From positions 1 to 38,207 of the forward strand of contig JAEUSP010000001.1 in the NCBI GenBank assembly GCA_016788565.1: DNA of 38,207 bases, read 5' to 3'. Positions 1 to 9,620 of this stretch are shown here, in pieces; within the stretch, counting starts at the first letter, position 1; each line of letters starts with the position of its first letter. This DNA is from Chlorobiota bacterium (lineage in GTDB: Bacteria > Bacteroidota > Ignavibacteria > OLB7). The notes below the pieces were generated by a model. That model did no database searches. It had not been told where the DNA came from and saw nothing but the letters and a program-made list of their open reading frames with translations. A program made the position numbers and the translations under genes.

Positions 1-2154
1 CGGCGTGTACTCAGCGGTGAAATAGTCGGGGTACTTCTCCTTCAGCGCAAGGCGCAACCAGACGTAGAAGAAATCGGACAGCTCCGAGTAGTGCAGCAAG
101 CCCCCGAAGGGCGGGTCGGTGATGACAAGATCAAGGCTGCCATTTTTAAGTTGCGTCAGCTCCGTGGACGAGCCGCACTGAACATCCGCGCCGCCAACTG
201 GATCACCCGGATAGACTTTTTCGCTCTTGCCTGTGATTTGCGCAGCCAAGGTCACGTCGTGCCGCTTGAGCGTTTCAAGGCTGACGGCATCCCACGGACT
301 TGCTGCCCATTCACGCCCTTCGACCAGAACCTCGCTACACGAAACCCAGTTGCCGCGACCAAGAGCCGGGAAAACGCAGTTCTCGACGACGTTGTTCTTC
401 GGGTGGAAGTTGTTGTTACTCAAATGCGGGGCGAGACAATCCCTGCTGATGTCCCAGAAGCAGAACATGTTCTGGTTCCGCAGGTATTGCTGATACGCGC
501 CAAGAACGAACTCGCGAGTCTTCCAGTCGTAGCTGCCAACCTCGACAATCGCCTTCAGCAGTTGCGCATGCACCAGCAGCTGACGTGGATTAAACATCGT
601 CCACCAGTGGGTGAAGCCGTAGTTCTCACGGATGTCGCTGTTCGCAACCGCAGTCATGAACCCATACGGAACTTCTGAGCGAGGCCAGTAGTCCTTAAAG
701 TCGGCGTCTTTGCGCACCTCCCATTCCGCAAACGCGGCGTCGTATTGCCGGGCGTGCGCAGCGTCGTAGGGGGCGAAGAAGCGACCATTGTAGGACTTGC
801 CCGCCGCATCGCGCTTTGGCGCGTAGCCCTGCACCGCGTAGGCTGCCATTTGTCCGCTTTTCTTGGTTGCCTTGATGGAGTTCATCACATCCTGCACCGT
901 GCCGCAGGATGCGCAAGCGAAGTTAGAGCGCTTCGGCACCGTGCCTTTCTCCGGGGCAAAGGTGAGGTTCGTTTCCGGGCAGGTCACCACCTGCGGCAGC
1001 GGGCCGCGCACCTCCAGCAGGCGGATATTTGCAGCGCGTGCGGCATCCCAGCGTGTGGTTGCGTCCGCGTCGTCCTGGGCCGAGCCACCGTAGGGCTGGC
1101 CGTTGGCATCCTGGTTCGCTTCCCCCGCCAGCCATTGCGGATGCACCAGCAGGCTCAGTTCCACCTTCTTGTTCTTGCCCTTGCCCAGATTCGCCATCGC
1201 GGTGTGGCCGCAGTGTGGGCAGATCACGCCTTTCCTACGGTCGAGCACGGAGTAAGGAGCTTCGGTGGGCGCGACGTAGAACGGCGCGTCGGGAGCCATG
1301 CGCGCGGCTTCTTCCTCCACGTCGAAGGCTTCGCCACACTTGCCGCAGGTGTGTGCCCAGTGCTTGACGGTGAGTGTTTTCACGGCCATCACCGGGCTGG
1401 TCATGATCGGTGTGCGGTGGCCGCAGCCTGTCACCCGGCAAGGGCCATGCTTTGCCCAGAAGGTGTAGATAATCTCGGGGCCTTCGTAGCGGTAGTCCTT
1501 GCGTTGGTCGCGGGGAATTGCCAGCGGGTCGAAGTTGGCGGGCATGGCGTTGTTGGTCGGCAGGTGGGTCCACTTCCCTTTCTCACCTTGCGGGCCGTCG
1601 CAGTAGTAGTACGGCATGATCTGCGGCTTGACCTGGGCCTCGATGTCGGCAAGCAGATTTTTCACCTCCTCCAGATCAACGTTGGCCAGTTCCTGTTTCA
1701 CCACAAACCAGGCAACCGGGTTAAGGTCGTTGCCAACCATCTGCATCCCCAGGCGCGAGCCTTCCACCAGCGTGGTGCCGCCGCCCATGAAGATGTCGGC
1801 CACTTTTAGTTTTTGGAAATTCTTGTTCTTCTGATGGTTGGCGTAGTAGTTGTCCCACACCAGCTTGGCCGCGTGCGAGTGGTCGTCCGGCGCTTTGGTT
1901 GCCGCCGCGATCAGCATCGAGCGGAACACGCTGGACCGCCGCCGCGCCCACCACTTCGACATCTGGTAGATCGGCTTGCCGGCGTTCCCTTCGATGATCG
2001 CCACCTGATTGACCGGCAGGATCGGGAAGTCCACTTCCAGACATGTCTTGGGGCGGTTCGGGTCGTTGAAGTCGACGGTTTCCAGCGCGGCCGCCTTGCC
2101 TGCGCCGACGGCTTTGGCAACTTCTTGTTGGAGTAGTTCTTTTTTGGTGGCCAT
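1..2154 (-). CDS. DUF1156-family adenine-specific DNA methyltransferase (3' end outside window)
   Basis: The reading frame is open from an ATG at 2154 to the left edge (718 codons, no stop), so the C-terminus is missing. The N-terminal part carries a DUF1156-like stretch (FPILPVNQ, then KWWARRR near residues 67-73). The SAM-binding motif I reads DIFMGGGTT at residues 120-128, and the catalytic motif IV, DPPFGG, is at 680-685, typical of amino-methyltransferases. Cysteine pairs at about 270/273, 312/315 and 414/417 fit the Zn-ribbon that COG1743 methylases carry. Such enzymes are expected to methylate adenine in host DNA so that a partner module can tell self from phage. It is the last gene seen in the operon, 11 bp after the PglZ-like gene and downstream of the DUF499 ATPase. 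Family assignment is from recalled motifs; the target sequence is unknown. The order of motif I far before motif IV matches this family. Confidence 0.9.
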   Translation of the reverse strand, partial: MATKKELLQQEVAKAVGAGKAAALETVDFNDPNRPKTCLEVDFPILPVNQVAIIEGNAGKPIYQMSKWWARRRSSVFRSMLIAAATKAPDDHSHAAKLVWDNYYANHQKNKNFQKLKVADIFMGGGTTLVEGSRLGMQMVGNDLNPVAWFVVKQELANVDLEEVKNLLADIEAQVKPQIMPYYYCDGPQGEKGKWTHLPTNNAMPANFDPLAIPRDQRKDYRYEGPEIIYTFWAKHGPCRVTGCGHRTPIMTSPVMAVKTLTVKHWAHTCGKCGEAFDVEEEAARMAPDAPFYVAPTEAPYSVLDRRKGVICPHCGHTAMANLGKGKNKKVELSLLVHPQWLAGEANQDANGQPYGGSAQDDADATTRWDAARAANIRLLEVRGPLPQVVTCPETNLTFAPEKGTVPKRSNFACASCGTVQDVMNSIKATKKSGQMAAYAVQGYAPKRDAAGKSYNGRFFAPYDAAHARQYDAAFAEWEVRKDADFKDYWPRSEVPYGFMTAVANSDIRENYGFTHWWTMFNPRQLLVHAQLLKAIVEVGSYDWKTREFVLGAYQQYLRNQNMFCFWDISRDCLAPHLSNNNFHPKNNVVENCVFPALGRGNWVSCSEVLVEGREWAASPWDAVSLETLKRHDVTLAAQITGKSEKVYPGDPVGGADVQCGSSTELTQLKNGSLDLVITDPPFGGLLHYSELSDFFYVWLRLALKEKYPDYFTAEYTP

Positions 2155-2165
2155 GTAGTGGTTGT

Positions 2166-3161
2166 TTATTTCGTGAGTTCGACGAAGGGTGACAGCATTT
2201 CCAGCAACGAAAGGCCGCCGTGGGCAAGCGTAGGGTAGCCCCCCTGGCTGCGCCATTTTCTGCGGCCCAACGCCAACCGGTGCGCGCCGTGGGGGCTGGC
2301 AAGTTGCAATGCCACGGGCGGAACGAAGGGGCCGGTGTCACCGGTTCCCGCTTTGCTACGCCCGCTGGAAAACGTCTGTTTAAGGAACTGGCCGACCTGG
2401 CCATCGGCATCGGGAAAGTAGCCGGTGGCAGCGTAGCCGTGGTCGGAGGTGATGACCAACCGCCGCCCGGTGGCAAGACGTTCAACAAAGTCCCAAAAGT
2501 CGTTGCTGGATAGCTGCTGCTTGGCCTCGTTGGCCAACTGGGTAAGCCCCTGGCCGGCACCGTAGCTGTGGAGTTTTTCATCGGGCCAGTGATGCCAGAA
2601 TATCCAGTTTTTGGCTCCGGGTATGCTTGCCACCAAGCCTTCGCAGTCCTTCCATGGCAGATTGGTGGATTCGGTTTGTGCTGGTTGCAGCTTGTGTGCC
2701 ATGCCGCCGCCGTTGCTCTGAAGCTGGCTTCGGCTGGCGAAGCCGAGGGCGCGGGCAAATTCGTTGGTTTCGCTGGGAAGCTCGGAGGCAGTTGCGGAGA
2801 CCTCGCGCGGAGTAAATCCACGATTGTTTGCCCCTTGCAGCAGCCAGGGGAGTTCCCGAAGCGAGAGGCCGTCAAGGATCAGGACCGCCTTTGCGCCGAA
2901 GGGTTCGGCCCACAAGCGGGCAAGCCGTTCCGAGGTGCGCTCGACGTTTTCACCGAACGTCTGCCAAAGGTCCCATCCGGTGGCGGAAAGAAAAAGATCG
3001 AGTGTGCCGATACGTCGGTCGCGATTGACAACCTCACTTCCGGCGTTGCCCGGTGCCAATGGTTTTGTGGCGATACCCAGCGTGTATTCGATGATACAAC
3101 GCCATGCATCAGCAGCAGTGTCATGGGTCAGGCGATGTACCTGTTCAGCACTCAGTGTCAT
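2166..3161 (-). CDS. Small PglZ-like alkaline-phosphatase-superfamily protein
   Basis: This 331-residue protein has the key blocks of the PglZ/alkaline phosphatase fold: ILDGLSLRELPWLL (D97, G98, S100, nucleophile region), FWHHWPDE (about 188-195), VITSDHGY (metal-ligand type D240-H241) and a C-terminal LAHGGLSLLEMLSPFVEL (H314), which is the typical PglZ ending. PglZ is a core BREX component that binds metal; in some systems nuclease or phosphodiesterase activity has been shown. Known PglZ proteins are generally much longer, so this is a stripped version holding little beyond the catalytic domain. Its ATG overlaps the stop of the DUF499 ATPase (ATGA at 3158-3161), which implies translational coupling and a matched dose. 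The methyltransferase gene follows 11 bp later. I am confident of the superfamily, less of the subfamily. Confidence 0.82.
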   Translation of the reverse strand: MTLSAEQVHRLTHDTAADAWRCIIEYTLGIATKPLAPGNAGSEVVNRDRRIGTLDLFLSATGWDLWQTFGENVERTSERLARLWAEPFGAKAVLILDGLSLRELPWLLQGANNRGFTPREVSATASELPSETNEFARALGFASRSQLQSNGGGMAHKLQPAQTESTNLPWKDCEGLVASIPGAKNWIFWHHWPDEKLHSYGAGQGLTQLANEAKQQLSSNDFWDFVERLATGRRLVITSDHGYAATGYFPDADGQVGQFLKQTFSSGRSKAGTGDTGPFVPPVALQLASPHGAHRLALGRRKWRSQGGYPTLAHGGLSLLEMLSPFVELTK

Positions 3162-5893
3162 CCGTTCTCCTCCTTCTCAAGGCTCAGCTCGAACGTCATT
3201 CCTTCGGGCAACTTCTTGAGCAATTCTTTGAGTTGCGCGCCGTTGGCAGCAGAGACTTTGATGGAGACCTCGGTGACCTTCGTGGCAGGGCCAATGCCCC
3301 AGCCCTCAATCTTGCCGATAAGGTTCAGCGGCGAGGTGGCAGGGTTCGACAGCGGCGTGCGCGGCTTGGTGGTGCCGCCGTCGTCGCCACCGAAAATACC
3401 AATAGGCGCAGGGGTTGGCGCTGGCGAAATACCGGGCTGGGGATCGTGTACAGCGGGGGGGGGTACTGGATCATCATCGTCGAAGATACTGCCGGCATTT
3501 CCGCCGGCAGCTGGCTGGGGTGTGCCACCAGTGGCAGGCACGGCAGAAGGCAGCAACAGGAGCACTTCTTCGAGATGGCGGCCCGTGAGCGATAGCTTGG
3601 AGCGCAGACGCAGCCACGCTGACTCTTCGATCTCACCTAGATTCGTTTGCAGGAACTCTATGCCACGCAGGTTGATGGCGACCTTGCCCTTGGCGCACAT
3701 GCGCAGCAGGCGTTCCTTCATCGCCGTTTCCCCCAGCCAGGGAATGCAGTCCAGTCCAGCAGGGCGCGGCTCCTGCAGCTCAGTCAGCAGCTTGCCAACC
3801 GATTGATTATTGCTGGCGTATTCGAGCACTACTTCTTCAAATTCTTCCGGTACGAACAGGTTGCTGGTCAGGGCCTGCTCAATCGCTGCTGGAATCTGCG
3901 AACCCTGCTTGTCCAGATGCTCGACGCTGAACCTGCACTGCGCGGGGTCGGCAAAATTCCAGTGTTGCAGCACGGCAAAGCGGTCGAACCGCTTTTTCAG
4001 GTTGTCGCGCAGGGTGTTCTCGAATTCCTTGTGCAGCTTTCTGTATTCGGGATTCTGGCTACTCCACTCCTGCGCCTTCATCTCGGCGCGGGCAAGGATA
4101 AGCAGGTCGCGATCCATGAAAGAGTTAGTGCTGCCTGCACGAGGGAGCAGGAAGCGGACGGTGTTGCGGCGCTTCTGCAGCCGGTTCTTGAGCCAGCAGC
4201 CCAGGGTGGCATTGAGATTGTCGGCTTCCTCGGGCAGCACAAGGATAGGCAGACGGTCATCCCACCTGTCGGGCTGCTCGGTTTCGTCGAGCAGAGTCCA
4301 GGGATCATTGACCCACGATTTCGGCAGTGCAATGACGCGAAAGGCTTTGGTAACTTCATTGCTTCCGGCAATGACGTAGCGCACCTGCTTCGCGAGCTGG
4401 ACCTGATCCGCGCCGTCGGCAAACAGCTTGTCGTTGCGCACGTAGGCCATCAGCTTGGCGCGCGGGTTTTCTTCCTCACGGAACAGCAGTTTGGAACCTT
4501 CCTGATGGATGTTGAAACTGTTCTCGACGATGGTCGCCAGCTCGACTTGGAAGGCGTTGTCATCCACTGGCTTGGCGCGGGTGATATCCAATTGCAACGT
4601 GGCGGGTTCGGCACCGGCAAGGTTGCCGACGGCAATCGAGCGGAGCCACAGTGCTCCGATGATTTCCTGAAGGTGTGGCGCGATATTGGCGTGGTCGAGC
4701 CGTGCTTCCCGCACCGAGATGATGTTCTGCTGCGCCTTCTCGCGCAGCGTGCGGTGGTGCTGGTTGGCAACGGCTTCAAGCAGCGCACCGATGCCCGAGG
4801 TGTCATCGTCCAGCCGAAAGTCGGCGGCGGTAAGCACGGGCACGGCCTCGCCACGGCTCTTGTATAGGTTGGCCAAGATGCGGATCAGGTCGCGCGTTTC
4901 CTGCGCGTCGGTGGCGATCAGCACCTGTTCTTCAAGCAGGCGCAACAGGTGAGGAGCGTAGGGCCACGACTCGGTAAATTCCCGACGCTTGCGCTCCTGC
5001 TCGGCTGGCGGTACGTCGAGCAAACGGAAGGCTTCGGCGACGTGCGGCTCAACCAGCGGTTCGATGGCATCGCTGGCGATCTGCAATCGGTTGTCGAACA
5101 GGCGATGCAGCAGCATGCGGCGGCGATCCTGCTGGATGCGCTCGGCACTGCCGGCCGCCTTGAAGTCGATGGCGACCGGGTTGACGCGATGCACTTGCTG
5201 GTAGGCATCGCTGCCGCCGTTGCGCACCGAGATCACCAGCACCAACAGATCGGGGCGCTGGTTGGCAATCTCCGAAAGAATCTGGATGAAGTTGAATGCC
5301 CAGTTCTTCCACGGGTACTGCTTGGTGTTGGTGAGGCCGTCGTACCATGTCTGGAATTCGTCCAGCAGCAGCATCGTCGGCTTGTTCTCCAGCAGTTCGA
5401 TAATGAGCTTGTCGGACGGAACTTCGGTCTTAGATGCGCCTTGACCTTCCCACTTGCCCTTGATGAACGTGCCCTGTGGGTGATTCTCAAACAGCACGTC
5501 CCACAGGAATTTGTAGCGGTGGCGATGCAGGCTTTCGCCGATCACGTGCATCCCGTCGCGCAGGGCAATCCTGCCGATGCTTGCGTCGGCCAGCGTGATC
5601 GCCCATGTATTAAGCCAAGTATTGGTAGAGGACGGATCGGTCACTGCATGGTACAGCGCGGCCATCAAGTGCGATTTACCGAGGCCGCGCTCACCAATCA
5701 CGACCACGGGGCGACCCTGGTTGGGGCCAACGGCCTTGATGCCTTTCAGCAGGTCGTGCGTGGGATAGGTGATCTCCAGAAACTGCTGGGCGGCGATCTG
5801 GGTCGCGCCAGTGTGCTGGTCGTTGGACAGCTCGATGGCCGTGCCCTTGAGTCGCTTGCCGCGGAATTCTTCTCGTAACGTCAGGTTTAACAT
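3158..5893 (-). CDS. DUF499-family AAA+/P-loop ATPase of a BREX-like defence operon
   Basis: A 911-residue ATPase. The Walker A motif is GERGLGKS (67-74) preceded by a VVVI strand, and the Walker B is MLLLDEF (174-180). The early LKGTAIELSND and the later VLVISVRNGG stretch agree with COG1483/DUF499 proteins. A proline/glycine-rich linker (roughly 800-850) leads to a small C-terminal domain of about 60 residues. In BREX-type and related defence loci such ATPases (BrxC/PglY-like) are thought to form the motor or regulator that works with PglZ and the methyltransferase. Here the gene heads the three-gene core and overlaps the PglZ gene by 4 bp. It starts 15 bp after the stop of a 41-codon remnant. 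A run of nine G (plus strand, 3455-3463) lies in the linker and is a possible slippage site. The exact BREX type cannot be settled from sequence reading. Confidence 0.88.
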   Translation of the reverse strand: MLNLTLREEFRGKRLKGTAIELSNDQHTGATQIAAQQFLEITYPTHDLLKGIKAVGPNQGRPVVVIGERGLGKSHLMAALYHAVTDPSSTNTWLNTWAITLADASIGRIALRDGMHVIGESLHRHRYKFLWDVLFENHPQGTFIKGKWEGQGASKTEVPSDKLIIELLENKPTMLLLDEFQTWYDGLTNTKQYPWKNWAFNFIQILSEIANQRPDLLVLVISVRNGGSDAYQQVHRVNPVAIDFKAAGSAERIQQDRRRMLLHRLFDNRLQIASDAIEPLVEPHVAEAFRLLDVPPAEQERKRREFTESWPYAPHLLRLLEEQVLIATDAQETRDLIRILANLYKSRGEAVPVLTAADFRLDDDTSGIGALLEAVANQHHRTLREKAQQNIISVREARLDHANIAPHLQEIIGALWLRSIAVGNLAGAEPATLQLDITRAKPVDDNAFQVELATIVENSFNIHQEGSKLLFREEENPRAKLMAYVRNDKLFADGADQVQLAKQVRYVIAGSNEVTKAFRVIALPKSWVNDPWTLLDETEQPDRWDDRLPILVLPEEADNLNATLGCWLKNRLQKRRNTVRFLLPRAGSTNSFMDRDLLILARAEMKAQEWSSQNPEYRKLHKEFENTLRDNLKKRFDRFAVLQHWNFADPAQCRFSVEHLDKQGSQIPAAIEQALTSNLFVPEEFEEVVLEYASNNQSVGKLLTELQEPRPAGLDCIPWLGETAMKERLLRMCAKGKVAINLRGIEFLQTNLGEIEESAWLRLRSKLSLTGRHLEEVLLLLPSAVPATGGTPQPAAGGNAGSIFDDDDPVPPPAVHDPQPGISPAPTPAPIGIFGGDDGGTTKPRTPLSNPATSPLNLIGKIEGWGIGPATKVTEVSIKVSAANGAQLKELLKKLPEGMTFELSLEKEENG

Positions 5894-5908
5894 TGATTAC
5901 GCTTTCCA

Positions 5909-6034
5909 TCATTCGTTTTGAGTCTTGGTGGCATCCTCAATTTCTGCGATGCCTTCATCGGTGAATCTGAAGTGTCGGTCTGGCTCGGTGAACGGAGAGT
6001 TAATTATGGGCTGTTCGATAACAACGTTCGGCAT
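5909..6034 (-). pseudogene. N-terminal remnant of a BPTD_3080/type III Res-like restriction helicase
   Basis: A 41-codon frame on the minus strand, too short for usual ORF cut-offs. It reads MPNVVIEQPIINSPFTEP followed by DRHFRFTDEGI. From memory, this closely matches the start of BPTD_3080-type restriction helicases (pattern ENPxINSPFxEPxRHFRFxxxGIT). Similarity stops after residue 29 and the frame ends at TGA (5909-5911). A GGAG lies 6 nt before the ATG at 6034; an upstream ATG at 6046 is also in frame but has no spaced RBS. The DUF499 gene begins 15 bp downstream. The simplest reading is an internal deletion that removed nearly all of a large helicase once encoded at the head of this operon. 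It could instead persist as a leader ORF coupled to the ATPase gene. Identity rests on recalled consensus, not a search. Confidence 0.6.
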
Positions 6035-6126: not shown

Positions 6127-6834
6127 CTACCCCTCCCCCTTCTGAATCTGCTGAATGCTTTTGATGACTTGGCTCCCTAATTGGCGGGTGTTGAACGGGT
6201 TGTTGTTGGCGTTCAACAGGGGAATCTGGAGTTGATCGGCAAGCTGGCGAAGAACTGGCTTGACTGGCTTGACTGGCTTGACCACCTTGACTCTATCACC
6301 CCCCGTTTCAACCTCTATCGTCCCGTTCTCAAGCTCCCTGATGGTGTACCCGTTGAATGTGACGGCAACCGCTGTGTTGATCTGGCGCTGGCTCTTCGGT
6401 TCGGGCTTCTTCAGTAGGAGGCCAAGATGAATTGCCCGCCTTCCGTTTTTCTCAGCAGACATCAGCTTCTCTGCGTCCTTGAACGGAGCATCCAGAAGAG
6501 TTTCAATCTCCATTTCTTCGTCGTTGATGCGGAGCACGATAACGCGGTCAACCTCTGGAAGCGTCTTGGCATTGAAACTGATGTGGTTACTCCCCTTCTT
6601 CGCTCCAGTGGTCTTTACCGAGATTCGCTCACCTTCCGCGCTCACAACATCATAGCCCCGCTGGTTGACGGTCTCGGCCATTTGGCCGTTGGTGAGAAGA
6701 GCCACATACAGCTCACCGATGCGCCCAATTAAATGCGGTAGTTCGGTGGGTTTTACACCCCATTGAAGTTCACGTTCAAGCCAACTCATAGCTTCACCCA
6801 ACGATTGGATAAGCTGCATCTGTGTTAAGGCCAT
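6127..6834 (-). CDS. Defence-operon protein with possible PD-(D/E)XK nuclease-like fold (DUF6998-like)
   Basis: A 235-residue soluble protein that I only partly recognise. Its best-conserved block is GRIGELYVALL, then YDVVSAEGERISVKTTG (about residues 37-78). A spaced E, D/E and xVKT pattern of this kind occurs in PD-(D/E)XK and Mrr-like nuclease folds and in DUF6998-type proteins. A middle part (VDRVIVLRIND, METL region) is followed by a linker with the tandem peptide KPVKPVKPV encoded by a 9-bp DNA repeat, and a C-terminal segment with LNANNNPFNTRQLG (about 210-222) that resembles a short DNA-binding or oligomerisation region. The ATG at 6834 is the first of the frame. It is the promoter-proximal gene of the defence operon, 92 bp upstream of the helicase remnant, so an effector or accessory role is plausible. 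Catalytic function is inference. Confidence 0.6.
   Translation of the reverse strand: MALTQMQLIQSLGEAMSWLERELQWGVKPTELPHLIGRIGELYVALLTNGQMAETVNQRGYDVVSAEGERISVKTTGAKKGSNHISFNAKTLPEVDRVIVLRINDEEMEIETLLDAPFKDAEKLMSAEKNGRRAIHLGLLLKKPEPKSQRQINTAVAVTFNGYTIRELENGTIEVETGGDRVKVVKPVKPVKPVLRQLADQLQIPLLNANNNPFNTRQLGSQVIKSIQQIQKGEG
6255..6290. repeat. 9-bp tandem repeat inside the nuclease-like gene
   Basis: Three exact copies of CTGGCTTGA (6255-6281) and one diverged copy (6282-6290). On the minus strand they encode a KPV repeat in the linker of the 235-residue protein. Copy-number change would stay in frame because the unit is 9 bp. Confidence 0.8.
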
Positions 6835-6920
6835 ACAGGATTTTGGTTTGTTGTTTTCGCCACAAGGCGCGGTGTTGAGAGAGGGTAACGGTGATAGAAG
6901 TACGCAGGCTGAACCTATGC

Positions 6921-6966
6921 TCGGTGGCTCCGCTCATACTTCGACGTAGCTCAGCATGAGCGGAGG
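6921..6966 (+). repeat. Dispersed hairpin repeat, copy A
   Basis: Contains the family core GCTCATACTTCGACG followed by AGCTCAGCATGAGC. The arms CCGCTCAT and ATGAGCGG form a perfect 8-bp stem. It lies in the 288-bp gap between the divergent defence operon and the GT-C-like gene; the rest of that gap (6835-6920, 6967-7122) shows no gene and must hold both promoters, which I could not pinpoint. Confidence 0.8.
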
Positions 6967-7122
6967 GCCACGTTCGGTAGCTTGGTTGATCCATTTGCAC
7001 ACAAACTTTGAGATACGCCACGCTCTTCTATCACCCTTGAAGTTGCCATGAAATTACACCCTGCATGGGGTTGTTTGCTATTGATTTTTGGACAAACTCA
7101 CATTGTTTCCGCAATTTCCTGA

Positions 7123-9560: not shown

Positions 9561-9620
9561 GCCGTTCGGTGGCCTCGCTCATACTTCGACGGGGCTCAGC
9601 ACGAGCGGGGGTGGGGTTCG
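9561..9620 (+). repeat. Dispersed hairpin repeat, copy B
   Basis: GCCGTTCGGTGGCCTCGCTC, then the core ATACTTCGACGGGGCTCAGC and ACGAGCGGGGGTGGGGTTCG. Arms CGCTC and GAGCG can pair. It is near-identical to copies C and D over its length but lacks their downstream TTCCT-rich part. It lies in the 930-bp gap between the GAF gene and 10289; 9359-9560 and 9621-9698 show nothing else I can name. Confidence 0.85.

Follow-up and report, generated by a model that had tools for sequence, protein, structure and literature searches.

A short open reading frame at the head of a defence operon in Chlorobiota bacterium is very probably the scar of an illegitimate recombination that joined the head of a restriction helicase gene to the tail of a regulator gene, directly before an otherwise complete BREX-related operon. 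The scar most likely sits in an acquired island; the window is the whole stretch of 38,207 nucleotides that we analyzed. We infer the recombination event from four observations, namely, the helicase head, the regulator-like tail, an intact helicase on contig C131 of the same assembly, and an empty site in a genome of the same genus.

The frame (MEHRMPNVVIEQPIINSPFTEPDRHFRFTDEGIAEIEDATKTQNE*) exists as read and extends from 6046 to 5909 on the minus strand, with a full length of 45 aa. A second ATG at 6034 defines a version of 41 codons (MPNVV...), and we retain this start, which the earlier note had chosen, since it follows a GGAG motif at a distance of 6 nt and aligns with the N termini of full-length relatives (MPSVVIENPIINSPY...). 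The TGA stop (5909-5911) falls 15 nt before the ATG of a DUF499 gene located on the same strand.

The earlier note had identified the frame as the N-terminal relic of a restriction helicase, and both the profile and the tblastn searches found that similarity. The codons at 5948..6034 of the minus strand (MPNVVIEQPIINSPFTEPDRHFRFTDEGI) contain the N-terminal signature of the BPTD_3080 family, INSPxxEPxRHFRFxDEGI, and the frame matched positions 1 to 27 of the 970 positions of the corresponding NCBIfam profile, NF046055 (restr_BPTD_3080), with an E value of 2.7e-4. In tblastn searches of other same-class genomes, the top matches were the N termini of long helicase frames of ∼850 to 1050 aa (59 to 75% identity), and a full-length protein of 988 aa from genome G034 was 83% identical to the N terminus of the frame over 29 residues. 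The resemblance is above chance, and the first ∼30 to 35 codons are the N terminus of a BPTD_3080-type restriction helicase. The helicase reading does not extend to the last ∼8 to 10 codons of the frame. With 45 aa, a score of 19 bits against the 800-bit cutoff of NF046055, and no helicase core, the frame is a remnant of a BPTD_3080 gene and not a member of the family. Pfam and PADLOC searches gave no match for so short a piece, and a literature search returned nothing usable on BPTD_3080 or on the MADS system.

The remainder of the helicase gene, described earlier as gone, was not found anywhere in the genome by a full-genome search. The same genome contains a separate, complete BPTD_3080 restriction helicase (G000:C10:18100-21090; L130, 4068-10289), which is followed by a 1021-aa gene. 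We considered whether the frame is a copy of this C10 gene, and the two were only 40% identical over 25 residues, too different for the C10 gene to be the source of the helicase head. As members of the helicase family strongly conserve the motif, the frame could also be pictured as a conserved stand-alone micropeptide that shares it. Across 99 relatives and 395 genomes sampled from the phylum, all good matches belonged to long frames or were cut by contig ends or gaps, and none was a stand-alone small frame like the 45-aa one. The good matches in these genomes thus include no case of the same frame conserved alone, and we regard a micropeptide as extremely improbable.

The other end of the frame points to a different gene. 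We compiled 91 other DUF499 loci, 80 of them from bacterial and archaeal genomes, 5 from viral contigs, and 6 from plasmids; 88 of the 91 had a locatable DUF499 start and were used in the following tests. In 39 of these 88 relatives, DUF499 is immediately preceded by an excisionase-type helix-turn-helix (HTH) gene; its stop typically overlaps the DUF499 start codon as TAATG, and one such gene that we ran against NCBIfam reached the cutoff of the MAD1 model (NF047737). The 26 nt preceding the DUF499 ATG in the window (5894..5919, minus strand) were identical to the HTH tails of the relatives at up to 19 of 26 positions in ungapped comparison. This maximum was equaled by 7 of 20,000 shuffles and the mean by none. 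Since ribosome-binding features are common to sequences before start codons, 576 other gene starts served as controls. The mean identity of 16.5/26 compared with 7.4 (standard deviation, 1.9) at the control starts, none of which reached the maximum (19) or the mean (16.5) of the 26-nt tail. When the HTH-gene 3′ end was searched by nhmmer against the whole window, the true place ranked only fifth (E = 4.5), so the assignment of the regulator tail rests on the anchored test. Because the ∼26 nt before the DUF499 start match the 3′ end of an HTH gene and not a helicase, the frame is chimeric. Its TGA stop at 5909-5911 lies within the regulator tail and arises by accident, as the frame reads this tail in another phase.

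Beyond the 26 nt, the match to the regulator tails is weak (20-nt segment, 5920-5939), and the breakpoint therefore lies somewhere in 5920-5948. It is ambiguous over these ∼28 nt: by codon comparison, helicase homology fades into regulator-tail homology across a junction zone at 5920..5947 (minus strand). The junction thus joins the operon to another defence gene and is not a deletion within the operon. This junction is known from one genome only. The 1.2 kb of the window that precede DUF499 gave no HTH profile match, and a search of the genome for a gene resembling the lost regulator gave none, the single match having 33% identity and an E value of 0.06. The DUF499 operon has apparently lost its own HTH regulator at the junction. 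The gene before DUF499 differs among loci L033 to L123, being an excisionase/MAD1-type HTH gene, a HigA-like gene, a gene for an unrelated small protein, or none; comparison of the loci suggests that this slot may be a hot spot for regulator exchange.

The genome is a draft assembly of 137 contigs, and such a junction might arise by the misjoining of two loci. A misjoin of two intact loci requires that their remainders be present, and the absence of a remainder for either broken gene from the assembly argues against it. Moreover, the junction is internal to its contig and is flanked on one side by a coherent operon. We therefore judge an assembly artifact to be very unlikely.

The operon following the junction is otherwise complete. 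On the minus strand of the window, it comprises an intact DUF499 AAA+ ATPase of 911 aa (3158..5893; PF04465 above cutoff), an intact PglZ-like protein of 331 aa (2166..3161; weak PglZ profile matches), and the first 717 codons of a DUF1156 N6-adenine methylase (1..2154), a gene that is assigned by profiles, runs off the contig end, and resumes on G000:C131. The methylase matched the HmaB and DUF1156_MTase profiles, its Pfam and NCBIfam matches being below the curated cutoffs. The DUF499 protein is 84 to 87% identical to its nearest relatives, mostly from Pseudomonadota, and the PglZ-like protein is 74 to 76% identical to the gene of the same operon in close relatives, in which its position is conserved. 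The end of C131 overlaps the start of the window by exactly 126 nt, an overlap from which the two probably form one operon. C131 carries the C terminus of the methylase, a 168-aa gene, and an intact 921-aa SNF2 helicase. This helicase is 84% identical to the one from Aminobacter, matches the BrxHI/BrxHII profile (3e-104), and lacks a nuclease fusion as judged from Pfam matches alone. The 168-aa gene had no profile match and stands where a small protein is expected. Plasmid relatives have the same gene order, followed by an ∼165-aa gene and an SNF2 helicase at the 3′ end of the operon. In enterobacterial plasmid operons (L034, 15792-18669; also L037 and L038), the PglZ-like gene is separated from the methylase gene by two extra genes, one for a SIR2-family protein and one for an ATP-binding protein, and the L038 plasmid also bears blaKPC-2.

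These data bear on the explanation put forward in the earlier note, according to which the helicase gene once stood in the DUF499 system, after the upstream gene and before DUF499, and a clean deletion removed this helicase/nuclease arm, while the ATPase, PglZ, and methylase genes kept their frames. The frames are indeed kept, with that of the methylase spanning two contigs, and so are those of the small protein and the SNF2 helicase. The position of the helicase head, between a DUF6998 gene and the intact ATPase gene, is what a clean deletion would leave. However, within the sequence stretch examined, none of the 91 DUF499 loci had a BPTD_3080 gene before DUF499 or elsewhere, and none had the fragment or the DUF6998 gene; conversely, DUF499 was absent from all 7 BPTD_3080 loci that we read in detail. 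Most of those among these 7 loci that have enough downstream sequence had a methylase-like gene there, as judged by motifs and not by a profile. Since no related DUF499 locus has a BPTD_3080 gene, a deletion within the operon does not account for the fragment, and the SNF2 helicase that belongs to the operon is preserved whole, in conflict with the loss of a helicase arm. The missing helicase part shows no sign of past membership in the DUF499 operon. The claim of a clean deletion is thus largely refuted, and we give it next to no credence.

The gene upstream of the frame (6127..6834, minus strand) encodes a 235-aa protein of the DUF6998 family (PF22522, E = 6.4e-17) and belongs to the insert. 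The 148 other genomes examined from the lineage lack it, and viral contigs contained no relatives of it. We rejected DUF6998 and BPTD_3080 as a standing gene pair, as there was no case of it among the loci compared. The DUF6998 gene contains a 9-bp tandem repeat, ACTGGCTTG, at 6254-6289, which gives a KPV repeat near the C terminus. Genome G001, of the same genus, provided the empty site. In G001, which is without the whole insert, a molybdopterin oxidoreductase gene (92% identical) and a 548-aa gene (76% identical) adjoin, 126 bp apart; in the genome of the window, ∼11.4 kb separates the oxidoreductase gene, located after the SNF2 gene on C131, from the 548-aa gene to the right of the insert. 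The motif TTCTATCA at 7026..7033 (plus strand) is a possible target-site duplication, with a second copy at the other edge (C131:11694) and a single one at the empty site of G001. This reading is weakened by the fact that the right copy is also an arm of a palindromic interspersed repeat, which has no assigned strand and occupies the right edge of the insert (6887..7038). The 58-bp core of the repeat (6921-6978) has >50 copies in the genome, with more window copies near 9566, 10062, 15590, and 37928; the repeat folds far better than shuffles (z score of −4.95) and appears REP- or MITE-like. Among 391 same-class genomes, DUF499 occurred in just one other, at 27% identity, and phage records contained none. 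We infer that the insert was likely acquired from Pseudomonadota.

Illegitimate recombination would thus have joined the head of a BPTD_3080-type helicase gene (∼30 to 35 codons) to the last few codons of an HTH regulator gene. In this event, ∼960 codons at the 3′ end would have been lost from the helicase gene and the 5′ part from the regulator gene; the operon with the attached helicase head lies within the ∼11.4-kb insert. The retained start site of the helicase would now stand where the regulator stood, so that the operon may have swapped its regulator for this upstream context.

The chimeric frame might, in addition to being a scar, be expressed and retained in the role of a translation leader, with the start site and leader of the helicase driving the DUF499 operon by coupling in place of the lost regulator; a translated leader was also raised in the earlier note. 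The start and its GGAG motif are kept, the frame is open, and its stop lies shortly before the DUF499 ATG on the same strand; in the relatives, the end of the upstream regulator gene typically overlaps the start of DUF499. Against this, a scan for sigma-70 promoters found no promoter-like sequence upstream, the RNA around the frame folds no better than shuffles, and a single genome offers no conservation in support. We regard a leader as possible, although on balance unlikely. A putative promoter or leader capture, in which the expression head of a restriction gene took the place of the HTH regulator and the system would now be switched like that gene, is a speculative proposal that we consider doubtful. 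If the leader were functional, the locus would exemplify the replacement of a regulator in a BREX-related system, resting on one genome. As a recombination scar, the locus is a well-resolved but ordinary case of defence-gene shuffling, traced to ∼28 bases, with the break in a small regulator gene and all catalytic genes whole; it also corrects the view of a system without a helicase.

Compared with known systems, the frame shares the N-terminal ∼30 residues of the BPTD_3080 family restriction endonucleases (NF046055), which are type III Res-like helicases. It keeps ∼3% of such a protein and is without the ATPase motifs, the helicase core, and the nuclease. Likewise, 26 nt of the window match the 3′ end of the MAD1-type HTH regulator (NF047737, excisionase family) of DUF499 relatives, whereas the HTH domain itself is gone from the window. 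A recent survey (Nucleic Acids Res 2026 gkag035, PMC12839542) describes Type-3 BREX-related (BR) systems as DUF499 centered, with a BrxHII-like helicase and a PglZ that stands alone. By its gene content, the operon would be assigned to Type-3 BR, a class that overlaps the "Hma" label in PADLOC. It has in common with this class the DUF499 ATPase, the PglZ-like protein, the DUF1156 N6-methylase, a small protein of ∼168 aa, and the SNF2/BrxHII-like helicase; the counterpart of the iSTAND small protein would be the 168-aa gene at the corresponding place. The operon differs in its HTH regulator gene, which precedes DUF499 in 39 of the 88 relatives and of which only a 3′ remnant, joined to the head of a helicase gene, is left here.
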